Shown in pieces: positions 3,301 through 9,300 of a stretch of 64,000 nucleotides of DNA. The notes below the pieces were generated by a model that was given only the letters and a program-made list of their open reading frames with translations, ran no database searches and was not told the origin of the DNA. How positions within the stretch are numbered: position 1 is the first letter of the stretch; every line of letters begins with the position of its first letter. Source of the DNA: Brachyhypopomus gauderio (Eukaryota > Chordata > Actinopteri > Gymnotiformes > Hypopomidae); NCBI RefSeq assembly GCF_052324685.1, contig NC_135225.1, forward strand, positions 12,872,704 through 12,936,703. Direction: 5' to 3'. The translations under genes were made by a program, and so were the position numbers.

Positions 3301-6300
3301 GACCTGGTCACGTCGGAGTGCCTTACCCGCCCAGCACAGGGCTGAACTCGATTACATCTTCCAGATTGGGCTTCATGTTCACCAGCTTCTTAAACATGGC
3401 CAGAGGAAAAGGTAAATGCACTATAGTTCCGTTGTAAAGGGCCATGCCACATAGGATCCCCAGCAGGAAGTACCTCTTTGACTCAACCTTTGGCTGAAAG
3501 ATTCAAACAGCACAGTTTTCTACAAGGATCACTAGGACTGTAGAACAGATTGAGGACGTGGTTTATTTCAAGAATCAAAAAAATGACTTTGTACCTTGAC
3601 AGGAAACCAGACCATTGTGTGGGTATCGTTGTACATGAATATCCCAGAATCAGGGTCTAACAGCTCAGTAAAGGCATGGAGGAAGAAATCTTTTTTGTTG
3701 ACTTCTGTCAGTTTGGAATCCTCAGCAAACTGCACCTGAGAATAGCACACAAGGCACAGCAATATGCAGACCTCACAGAACAACTCAATTTCGCAACTCC
3801 ATTCACAACTCCATTCATTGCCTCAGTGTGAAAGAACAAACAGTAAAAACCCAGCCCTGCTTTCAACAGTCTTTGGAGGAAGTACTCCTTTAACCAATTA
3901 TCTCACCACCAGCTGTTTCCCGAAGTTGTCATGGTCTGTGGAGGACAGCTGTCTGAACGTGTCCTCCAGCAGTGCTGTACGTCTCAGCTTCAGCTGAATC
4001 ATGGGTGTGGGCGTTTCTCCAGTGAACTTATGATGGTGAAACCCACCAGCGCTCATATTGTGGATCAAGTGATGTATCTCCTGAAACACACATTTAGTTA
4101 ATGTATCTCCGTGGTTTACTAAAAATACATTGAGGAATGTAGGTTAATATCTTAATATGATACATGTGGAATCTGTATGTCTGCTATAGTCAGGATCATT
4201 TTGACACATGTAACTGAACAAAGTAGTTAATGACTAAATCCTCATAGATGGACACATTATGTTCATTGTGTAATTAGAAGAATACCATGCTCAAGTTAGC
4301 AACGAAATTGAAAATGCTGATTTTGCTCTGCAGGTCCAGGAGGAATGGGTAACAACAGAAAACTGCACACTCCCCGTCTTCATGCTCTCAAACATACGAA
4401 AGAGGCAAATATAAGACAACACAATAAATAAAATCTACATCAGCTTATACTCTGACTCAATTCAAATATTGTGTGTTCGTTCCCCTCTAAACTCTGCGCT
4501 GTATTACCTGCACTTGTCCATTCTTAATCTGACACCACAGACGGAAATCGTTGAGGAGTAGTTGAGGGGTGCTGCCGATTTCTTCGATGTAAAACTCACT
4601 GAGTGGAACCTTCCTCTGTTTCTGACCTCTTTTGTTGGCCTTTGAAATGAACACATGGATTAAGGTCAACCTGCTGTTGTAGTATTCCTGTCTTCACAGT
4701 TGAAGCCACTATCTGTAGTTTGATTGCAATGCTTAAAAACAACAAAGTAAATACAAAAGACTTGCAGCATGAAACTGCTCTCTTGAAAGCACTGGCACAA
4801 GATTAGATCAGAATATGCTGTACTATTGTATGTTTATCTAATGGCTGTATTTTATGAATGCTGACCAGAACTTCATACTGACCTTGTAAAGGTACTTGAG
4901 AACTTTCAAAAGAGCAATCAAACCAGGGACAAAGTTGATCCACACCCTGGACTTCAGGAGAAAGGCAAGGGCCTGTTTCCACATGCAGATGTGTTTTGTC
5001 ATCATAGGTGGTTCTATGGAGGACCAGTGTTCCTCTGCAGGATACAGAAGAAAGACAGATGCTAATGGAGACCTACACAGAAATGTACAGTCTGTTGTAA
5101 AAAGTGATTGTAGGTAGAATGTCTGAGATACAGACAGCTGATCTTACGTAAGGTTTTCATGGCAGACTCGTTGAGGTTCGTGATGGCTACAGCTAACGGC
5201 AGCACCAGCTCAATGACACTGCAGTCTTCATGAAGAATAGGACACGTGGGCAGAAGCATGAAGACCTCCGGCCACCTCATAAATCGTGCAGCGTATGCAA
5301 GGTTGTGCACCAGTGGGGTAATGTTCATCTAGGGTAAAACAATAGTAACTAAAGAAACACACAAATTGGAATCATTTGTGCCCAGATTCACAAATGCATA
5401 TAAGATTAACACAACTTCCTCTACCATCTCATAAAGGTCATTGTGCTTTAATGTTTTGGGCAAACATACAACAGGTATACCACAGTGCATAGCTGTCACT
5501 GTACTGTGCAAATACAATGTGACACAACTTATACTTATAAGGCTTATAACTCAACTGCTTTCTTGATCCAAGGAATCATCAGGAGCTTGTCAAAGGTCTG
5601 GCTGGCAGCATTCAAATCTACTTTAATGGTGCCTGGGACACTCTCACTGCTAGCCCCCCTATCACAAAAATATACAGTCAAAATACAGGATACAGTTACA
5701 TTAATTTATCTCAGTATTCTGTACAAATCGATAGGTTTACCGGTCCTTCATGAAACAGGCGACGAGATTTGAACTTGTTGAAAAAGTCAAGCAAATCTCC
5801 CTGTGGAAAAATAATATAATGAAAAACATGATATAATCATGATACATGACTCATTCAGATTTGGTGTGCTGGGTGCATTGATAAATTTGAAGGCCGCACC
5901 ACACCTTTGAGCTTTTTCTATATTAATGTCTTTCTCTGACATGGAAACCCATCTTTGAACTTGATCTTGATCTAGTTTTCCAATTGGGTTCCCAAGAACA
6001 GAGGTCTAAACAGAACAGAACAATTCATCTTTTATTATTAAATCATGACTGCAGTTCAATAAGCCTTCAAAAATTATTAAATGATAACATAACCTAATAT
6101 CATATATAGAAGATCCATCTACAAGCAAAGATATAACAATGTAAAAATGTACAAAAAAATGACTGTCACGGTGAGGCGGCCCCCTACCGGCCGCCTCCGT
6201 CCACAGCGGCTGTTGTTGTTGTTGTCTGGTGATGTCATGTGCGTCCCTCAGGTGGGCGGAGCCCGTGATCCGTCTCACCTGAGGGTCGTTTGTTTGCCTA

Positions 6301-9300
6301 TATATGTCTTGTCTTTGTACCAGTTGACCGCTGGTCATTATATCCTTAATTTGGAGATAGTGCACGGGTTTTAGGTTTGCACACTTTCTATTAAACCATC
6401 CTTTTTCCCTGAGACTTGGCGTGATCGCTTCCTTTTTGTTGCTCACCCCCGCCCGTCACAGAATGACCAGCCACCCTTCGGAAGCCGCCGAGTCTCTTTT
6501 TCTTTCTCCTTCGTTCGTGGTCATGTCTCATGGTAAGTGTTTGTCTGCGTGGTGTTTTGTTTGAAGAGCTCCGCCGTGCTTTTGTGTTTTGTGTGTGTGT
6601 GTGTGTAGCATGGCGAGGACCAGGGCAGTCTGCCCTGAGACAGCTCTTCGTGTCCGTTGTATGTTGCGGGAGTTCCGCCGTGCGCTTGTGTGTATGTGGC
6701 ACGGCGAGGACCAGGGTGTCTGCCTGGTAGACTCTCGTGTGTGTTTTGAATGTGTGTACGTGTCGACGGACGTGTGGACCAGTGTGCGTGCTCGTTATGT
6801 TCTATGTTGAATGTTTTATGTGTGACGCGGTTGCCGCTCGTCACTGTCGCCTCGCTCCCCGTGTGTCGTGTGTTTAATGTGGGGAGCGACTGCGGCTCTG
6901 AGCGGCGCGCGTCACTGTGTTTGTGTAAGCAGAGCGCGCATGTGATGGGTTCCGTCTGTCTGTTTGTACACCGTTTTTTGTTTGTCTAGTATTTGCGTGT
7001 GTGTTTTGTCCTAGTGTGTTGTCAGCTGTTACATGTAATTCCACGCATGCTCCTCCCCTTAAATGTGTGTTTGGGGGGGGACCGGCTGTGGTCCCGTGCC
7101 ACTGGGTATGGCACGGAGGGCGTCTGAGGCGCATTTGTGTTCTATGTTGGTGTGTGTTTGGGTGTGTGTGTGTGTGTGTGTGTGTGTGTGTTTCTGTGTA
7201 GGTGCTTCCCCTTGGCGGTGTTGTGGTGTTCCTGGACCTTGTGGGGGTCTCCACCTGGCAGGAGCCCCCTTGTGTTGTGGGGTGACCGGAGCCTGGTCAG
7301 GAAGAGCTCCTCCCTAGAGGGATGGGGCCCCCGGATGTTTGGGGACCATGGGGCTCCGGTCTGAGAAGCTCCTGCTGGAGATGGAGATCCTCCCTCCTGC
7401 CTGGGGTGACCAGGAGGCCCTTGGGGCTGCTCCCTAGCCCGCGTCGGGGGTGCTCTGGGCCTCGGTCTCTGGCGCTCCTGGGTTGGGTGGAGGAGTCCAC
7501 CGTGCGATGAGGGGCCCTGGGAGGGGTTCGCTCCCCAGGAGGCTGGGGTGACCCCTAGCCAAGGGCCGGGGTCAGCTCTGGGAGGAGGTAGGTCCAGGAG
7601 GAGAGGTAGCCACGCCTCGGGGAGGTAACCTGCACCCACACACACACTAAGGACGACAAAGGAGTCGTAGCTCCTCGTCCGCACACCTTGGGGCTCTCTG
7701 GCTAAACGCCGGTGAGGGCCCTGTGACCGACCGGGGCGTGGTTTTGTGTTGTTAACGGCCCGGTCGGTCCAGGGTCCCGCCCGGGGAGGTGAGCTGCCTA
7801 ATGTTTTGTGTTTTATGTTCCAGCTCCTGGACGGCAGGAGGTGTGTTCCTGCCTGTCTCTGCCTTCCTGCCCCTTCATGTTTTGTGTGCAGCCGCTGTGT
7901 GCCACACACCCAGTGGAGGGGAGTGCGGCTTGGTGGGGGGGTCTGTCACGGTGAGGCGGCCCCCCTACCGGCCGCCTCCGTCCACAGCGGCTGTTGTTGT
8001 TGTTGTCTGGTGACGTCATGTGCGTCCCTCAGGTGGGCGGAGCCCGTGATCCGTCTCACCTGAGGGTCGTTTGTTTGCCTATATATGTCTTGTCTTTGTA
8101 CCAGTTGACCGCTGGTCCTTAATTTGGAGATAGTGCACGGGTTTTAGGTTTGCACACTTTCTATTAAACCATCCTTTTTCCCTGAGACTTGGCGTGATCG
8201 CTTCCTTTTTGTTGCTCACCCCCGCCCGTCACAATGACACTAATGACAAAATACTAAATACAACAAAGTTTAAAATGAGCATTATGTTTAGATTTCTTTT
8301 AGGAGCTCAGTACAGGAGCATAAGGAGCTCAGAACCCAGGATTTCTCTCTCGTTGTCTTGAATCAGTTTCAGTTGTACTAACAGACAAACTAAGAGCATG
8401 CAGTATGCTTACCTTGGGAGGGGGGAAAAACAGGAAGTTCGAATTCCATCCAGAGTATATTTTAATTTCTATGTGAATCAAAATATATTTAATTTCAAAC
8501 AATACAGTAATTATTGAATAATTCAACACAAACATGAAGTAAAGCTGCTGTAAGCCTAAGAATACTTCAGCTAAACGCCCTTAACATCCTGAACACTCTA
8601 GTTAAAATAGATTAATTAAAATTGTGCCCTGAGAACACAAAATGTCTCTGTGATTATCCTGGGCTCTGTAATCACCAACTAAACAATGTAATATGGTCCT
8701 ACCATTAACCAATCAGGAAAAGCCTTTACAAGGTAAAAGACCTCCCAACCTGTCAGTTATTTTACCTCTGCACACAGGGACATACAAATGTAGGCTGACC
8801 GCAGTGAACATGTGTGACTTAGGATGGGCAGGCCTGGAGAAAGTTTTAAAAGCTTCTGCACCTGCATGTGTGTCGGCAGTCAAGCTGTTCCAGGATCCTT
8901 TCAGTTCTATAGGCTGCAGACTATCCTCCATGCTACCGTTCTTCGCCTGACCTTTGACCCCACGCCCAAAGGCCAGGAGGAGGCCGGATTCCATCAGAAT
9001 CAAGGTGTGATGGCTGTCATCAAGGATTGACAATAGGTTAGTTAGGTTTGTCAGATGATGCTGTATCAAACAAAAATAAGAAAACAGACTAAGCTCTGTG
9101 GATAAATATATTTTATATATTAGTATATAATAATGACAAAGCACCACACAGAACCAAATCGAAAAAGCCGTGTAATCTTTAATAAATTATTTACTGCTCC
9201 ATGTTCTCCATGAAATGTCTGAAGTGAAAGAGATTAAATGTATGTTTATTGGTCCATTACCTGCCACAGGTCACTTCTTTAGCTGGAGCATCAATGCCCT

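Follow-up and report, generated by a model that had tools for sequence, protein, structure and literature searches.

Structure and age of the element

A complete long terminal repeat (LTR) element of 2,070 bp occupies positions 6164-8233, plus strand, of a 64,000-nt stretch of the Brachyhypopomus gauderio genome (GCF_052324685.1, NC_135225.1:12,872,704-12,936,703, forward strand). This stretch is referred to here as the window, and coordinates are positions within it. The element lies antisense within a minus-strand HERC-type gene and is a genuine, recently inserted copy belonging to a large gene-less family. Very probably, this family is related to the Tf1/sushi chromoviruses, primes its own reverse transcription, and obtains its proteins in trans from coding sushi elements that share its genome.

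The element displays the hallmarks of an LTR retrotransposon, namely two LTRs bounded by TG...CA, a target-site duplication (TSD), and a polypurine tract (PPT) ahead of the 3' LTR (Table 1). An earlier reading of this DNA, made from the sequence alone, had described a very young insertion with a perfect ATGAC duplication and LTRs separated by one substitution and two indels. Alignment bears this out, with one transition in 289 aligned sites, two gap events (one extra C and an 8-nt gap), and identical duplications on both sides. The resulting Kimura two-parameter (K2P) distance of 0.0035 is the lowest among seven two-LTR copies compared, the other six ranging from 0.010 to 0.058. At usual vertebrate substitution rates, the insertion dates to the order of a million years ago or less. 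The range around this figure is very wide because the LTRs differ by a single substitution.

The sequence-only reading was equally accurate on the interior, which it had called GC-rich, partly duplicated, and devoid of gag-pol, and on the TATA-like motif and ATTAAA present in each LTR. G+C content reaches 59% in the interior vs 44% in the whole window, and partial internal duplications extend over 30 nt (90% identity) and 22 nt (86%). None of the 11 element open reading frames (ORFs) scanned, a set above the smaller frames, gave a Pfam match, and so no chromodomain-bearing pol was recognised.

Family size and mobility

When the 797-Mb assembly was searched at the DNA level, 40 of 2,589 first-look candidates were scored and 53 match rows returned, from which the best eight were kept as loci. 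Seven of these form the two-LTR set, L008 being left out for its broken 3' LTR. All seven, the window copy included, are flanked by different perfect 5-bp TSDs, and hence the gene-less form is mobile as such. Pattern counts indicate a large family. A 21-base pattern spanning the LTR end and the primer-binding site (PBS), with up to 2 mismatches, yields 1,339 junctions, and a 26-base one from the LTR, covering the primer site, yields 3,600 sites; the reversed control of the first and the control of the second gave none.

Ninety of the 100 listed exact junctions were read, all on contigs C1 and C2, 30 of them for 1,500 bases and 60 for about 700 bases. They are not all independent, as six come from one tandem array. 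The same gene-less interior follows in 88 of the 90, several of them carrying internal deletions or nested insertions, which confirms the expectation of many copies sharing it. The remaining two junctions (L025 and L033) have diverged interiors, and gag-pol is not visible at any of the 90 within the stretch read. Over the first 400 interior bases, which were compared, strong conservation is confined to the initial ~100.

L025 and L033, whose interiors diverge after ~100 nt, were considered as coding relatives and rejected: their longer pieces (L039 and L040) show no gag-pol in frames of at least 120 aa read by eye, and L039 contains a frame named by eye as of the long interspersed nuclear element (LINE) type. 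Six tails were also examined. L121 appears LINE-like on inspection by eye, L126 reaches an LTR end followed by flank, and L120, L127, L113, and L087 contain other sequence.

Other features accompany the family. The tandem array on C1:794070-805019 (L009-L014) comprises seven LTRs and six interiors with shared LTRs, at ~1.82 kb per unit. A splice-donor-like G[G/A]TAAGT occurs in 88 of the 90 copies, within a well conserved stretch of ~90 nt. An insertion in a family copy, seen at L041:1-1917 and L030:2445-3020, carries long proline-rich repetitive open frames, of which P0001 and P0002 gave no Pfam match.

Putative self-priming signals

In Tf1, the first bases of the RNA are complementary to the PBS, and Tf1/sushi chromoviruses are described as self-priming (PMC7175516, PMC10085805). 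The gene-less family appears to prime in the same manner, as judged from its sequence. A putative self-primer of the Tf1/sushi type, GCTGGTCATT, is present 31 nt after TATATA, at the predicted 5' end of the RNA, and is an exact 10-nt complement of the PBS, AATGACCAGC, which begins one base past the LTR. When the 40 nt following the LTR were shuffled, a match of at least 10 nt anywhere in the LTR arose in 4 of 1,000 shuffles, and the position of the primer would make a chance match less likely still. The window leader, folded from its predicted start, pairs the primer with the PBS.

Retention of the primer was compared across 30 copies selected for an exact PBS, which confined any variation to the primer side. 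The full 10 of 10 primer-PBS pairs are kept in 24 copies (six of which represent one tandem array), nine pairs in four copies, and eight in one, while the site is lacking in one. The 8-nt gap mentioned above clips the self-primer in the 3' LTR of the window copy only; the six other two-LTR copies are intact in both LTRs. If replication follows the Tf1 scheme, a daughter copy would inherit its primer portion from the 3' LTR.

Coding sushi relatives

A genome search for sushi gag (PF16297) scored 150 of 1,339 candidates, a figure that equals the junction count by coincidence, and many matches lie in open frames of ~1,400-1,570 aa. Among 30 sushi loci examined, an LTR-PBS pair with family letters (9-11 nt) is present in 18, L050 and L067 among them. 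Eleven loci carry the type A pair, AATGTGCAGC/GCTGCACATT, and seven the type B pair, ATGCGCAGC/GCTGCGCAT. Compared with AATGACCAGC/GCTGGTCATT of the gene-less family, both have changed on the two sides in step: same-family combinations form 10, 10, and 9 pairs, mixed combinations 7-9. Exact complementarity, position, and this covariation are the basis on which we infer self-priming without a tRNA.

The coding elements share further signals with the family. The LTR start TGTCACGG is common to the gene-less element and nine of the 30 sushi loci, where it reads TGTCACGGTGAGG or its first 8 bases. The PPT and adjoining LTR start of two type A elements align with those of the gene-less element, at 80% over 50 nt for L136 (E 1.6e-8) and 79% over 48 nt for L135 (E 1.6e-7). 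These two elements are bounded by TSDs ATGGA and ACTGT, and the LTRs within each agree at 99.8% across 448 nt and 98.9% across 350 nt. In type B, TATA stands 28 nt before the primer in the six loci checked. Chromo and SH3_Tf2-1 domains, which are marks of Tf1/sushi chromoviruses, were found in the 3' ORFs of both L136 (type A) and L137 (type B). Since LTR ends, PPT, PBS position, and 5-bp duplications are shared with the gene-less family, so that the signals for priming, plus-strand initiation, and integration correspond in place, type A elements are the likely protein donors. The sequence-only reading had looked to a coding element sharing the LTR, and this holds in part: type A elements have LTR ends, PPT, and PBS position in common with the family, while a coding element with the same whole LTR was not found in the samples. 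Ten listed type A PBS-like sites fall within ~600 kb of contig C37 (959869-1555515), forming a local cluster.

The sushi gag frame reads through the LTR end, from an ATG 62 or 71 nt inside the LTR, in 11 of the 18 loci in which the PBS was found, and at the LTR end it reads ...SQNVQP... or ...LQNAQP.... The window element shows PSQNDQPP at the same place, in the ATG-less frame 6375-6536. This frame is a possible relic of a gag start, and the likeness may be taken as slight additional evidence of shared descent with sushi elements. An ATG inside the PBS was also considered as gag start and discarded, being out of the gag-match frame in 16 of the 18 sushi loci. The frame MTSHPSEAAES... of the gene-less family is therefore not a gag relic, since the PBS ATG lies outside the sushi gag frame; in some of the 90 copies, it is also altered or out of register.

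Interpretation and alternative explanations

The reading that best accounts for these observations is a self-primed, gene-less family that parasitises coding sushi elements. The LTR would drive a transcript starting ~30 nt after the TATA box. By folding back, the first ten bases of this transcript would pair with the LTR-adjacent site and serve as primer for reverse transcription, with no tRNA involved. The proteins (Gag, reverse transcriptase, and integrase) would be supplied in trans by the coding sushi elements, as the shared signals suggest. The window copy has inserted into the HERC-type gene. A narrower proposal, that the family carries a private primer/PBS pair and is yet copied by sushi enzymes whose recognition reads the geometry of the self-primed leader instead of its letters, has somewhat less than an even chance. 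Family junctions outnumber sushi A PBS sites by ~12:1 (1,339 vs 114, with other sushi types outside the count).

Several observations weigh against this interpretation. A coding element with the family's own LTR or PBS letters was not found in the part of the genome sampled, and the helper is thus a cousin instead of a proven master. Twelve of the 30 sushi loci lack a pair in these letters, and one of the twelve, L045, yielded a 9-nt match of unrelated sequence; a match of this length on its own can therefore be due to chance. TATA 28-35 nt before the primer is absent from all 10 type A loci checked, the PPT and LTR start of L137 (type B) gave no significant match to the gene-less element, and the LTRs of the family and of sushi elements are unalignable between their ends. 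The stability of the window leader exceeds that of shuffles by a small margin (z -1.85, 6 of 200 shuffles equally stable), and the primer duplex in 31 of 31 predicted leader folds is nearly a given, since leaders were chosen for folding by the presence of both exact 10-mers. With regard to the multi-duplex ('pretzel') leader structure of the Tf1/sushi group, a second duplex, between the LTR end CCCGTCAC and TGCACGGG, is predicted in 15 of the 31 minimum-energy folds. Neither a transcript nor a cDNA or an insertion polymorphism was seen.

The strongest competitor holds that a coding master with the same LTR and primer/PBS letters exists or recently existed, sushi A and B being cousins only. We regard it as rather unlikely. 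The resemblance of the PSQNDQPP frame to the sushi gag frame makes an ancestor with gag and these PBS letters probable, and two of the 90 junctions, L025 and L033, lead into diverged interiors. With 90 of the 1,339 junctions read, 60 of them for ~700 bases, a coding copy whose leader is shared over a long distance could also escape; we estimate that none in 90 is compatible with up to ~3% coding copies, or more if the shared leader exceeds the stretch read. Against a master stand the lack of gag-pol in the stretch read at those junctions and the spacing of LTRs, surveyed at the first 100 listed exact LTR sites over 36 Mb of C1. Of 62 same-strand neighbours, 29 lie at 1.2-2.2 kb (median 1,796), two at 2.2-4 kb, one below 1.2 kb, and 29 beyond 9 kb. 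The single neighbour at 4-9 kb ends at an LTR that pairs with its own next neighbour at 1.8 kb. Moreover, a pattern joining the family PBS to sushi A letters gave 114 matches; each of the 100 listed carries 2 mismatches, and the 18 with letters shown are sushi A.

Two other explanations fare worse. An isolated internal deletion in one coding element, without broader significance, would fit the survival of a gag-like frame at the LTR end and a sushi-like PPT at the other end. It is contradicted by the perfect TSDs of the seven gene-less two-LTR copies, which differ from copy to copy, and by the common interior of 88 of 90 junctions, which leave it practically no credence. A deletion may be the origin of the family, and a one-off event, the outcome that the sequence-only reading had asked to be set apart, is refuted. 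Very improbable, too, is a tRNA-primed terminal-repeat retrotransposon in miniature (TRIM), Helenus-like or ordinary, in which the LTR-PBS match is due to chance. tRNA-type PBSs begin with TGG, pairing with the CCA end of the tRNA, and TGG is absent from the first 12 interior bases. ARAGORN found no tRNA genes in the window, Rfam gave no matches at gathering scores, and the primer/PBS match covaries across three families. What speaks for such an element is the use of tRNA primers by vertebrate Helenus-group TRIMs (PMC10886601).

Host gene context

Clear RCC1 matches occur in four minus-strand ORFs (9257-9388, 9889-10236, 11420-11653, and 12317-12604), with weak matches, below the curated cut-off, in ORFs 8713-9186 and 9527-9787. 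HECT matches lie in minus-strand ORFs 1573-1950 and 3323-3502. These matches flank the element and are all on the minus strand, which places it inside the HERC-type gene in antisense orientation. The sequence-only reading had put it in an intron of such a gene; gene and orientation are upheld, and the intron position is inferred. On the gene strand, the element contains no AATAAA and one ATTAAA (6878). So few polyadenylation signals are in line with the idea that antisense placement would lower the risk of premature termination.

Table 1. Features of the LTR element and its insertion site in the window
Feature	Position	Strand	Basis or remark
Target-site duplication ATGAC, 5' copy	6159..6163	.	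direct comparison, perfect
5' LTR, 297 bp, TGTCACGG...CGTCACA	6164..6460	+	LTR alignment
TATATA	6299..6304	+	31 nt before self-primer; counterpart in 3' LTR at 8080
Self-primer GCTGGTCATT	6330..6339	+	at predicted transcript start; exact reverse complement of PBS
LTR segment TGCACGGG	6361..6368	+	predicted pairing with LTR end (second duplex)
Frame across LTR end, ...PSQNDQPP...	6375..6536	+	no in-frame ATG; stop 6534-6536
ATTAAA, possible polyadenylation signal of 5' LTR	6390..6395	+	3' LTR counterpart at 8163
LTR end CCCGTCAC	6452..6459	+	predicted partner of 6361-6368
Interior without recognised genes, 1,483 bp, G+C rich, partial internal duplications and GT repeats	6461..7943	+	
Primer-binding site AATGACCAGC	6462..6471	+	one base past LTR (interior start = G-AATGACCAGC)
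GTAAGT, splice-donor-like	6533..6538	+	
Stretch with polypurine tract ahead of 3' LTR	7912..7943	+	similar to coding sushi A elements
3' LTR, 290 bp	7944..8233	+	LTR alignment
3'-LTR self-primer shortened to GCTGGTC by 8-nt gap	8111..8117	+	
Target-site duplication ATGAC, 3' copy	8234..8238	.	perfect

Comparison with known systems

The general kind of element is known, and its self-primed variant in an animal genome appears to be new. Titles and abstract openings of the open-access papers listed named no self-priming non-autonomous vertebrate family; Repbase and subscription papers lie outside that range, and an entry in a repeat library is possible.

The sequence-only reading had likened the element to parasites of the TRIM or LARD (large retrotransposon derivative) type. 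The non-autonomous character is supported by the many independently inserted gene-less copies, and the likeness extends to two LTRs, a PBS, a PPT, the lack of recognised genes, high copy number, and tandem LTR-interior arrays. LARDs, which have a large conserved non-coding core, are larger than the 2,070-bp element with its 1,483-bp interior. TRIM size does not apply either, the limit being given as 1,000 bp (PMC10886601, PMC6934838). The same reports describe TRIMs as tRNA-primed and, outside plants, name few animal groups as hosts. In this family, priming is probably by the element's own RNA.

Helenus TRIMs possess a tRNA-derived LTR, a tRNA primer, 4-bp TSDs in animals, and tandem arrays, and are very abundant (PMC10886601). 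The fish members (LTR-11_DR and relatives) resemble the present family as very abundant gene-less vertebrate LTR elements with tandem arrays. Unlike them, the family has 5-bp TSDs, a predicted primer of its own, and no tRNA-like sequence found by Rfam or ARAGORN. The biv-TRIM of bivalves is likewise an animal gene-less LTR element with tandem arrays and no canonical tRNA PBS. Its authors mention Tf1-type self-priming elsewhere and propose no clear priming mechanism for biv-TRIM itself (PMC6934838). Set beside that account, the primer/PBS pair of the gene-less family differs in being exact and covarying.

Close to the family, too, is the Tf1/sushi group (Tf1, Tf2, and sushi-ichi). As in that group, the predicted RNA start is complementary to the PBS, and the same genome harbors coding relatives with PF16297 gag, Chromo, and SH3_Tf2-1, of which type A shares LTR ends, PPT, and 5-bp TSDs with the family. 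Unlike that group, the family lacks gag-pol, and its primer/PBS letters differ from those of the two coding types read. If a helper does recognise geometry, the parasite would need neither a tRNA nor a primer sequence in common with it. An abundant self-primed gene-less family beside long-frame coding sushi elements would offer a natural system for studying what a helper reverse transcriptase needs to recognise. Moreover, the double-sided changes in the three primer/PBS pairs lend comparative support, from one animal genome, to a priming mechanism established in fission yeast.

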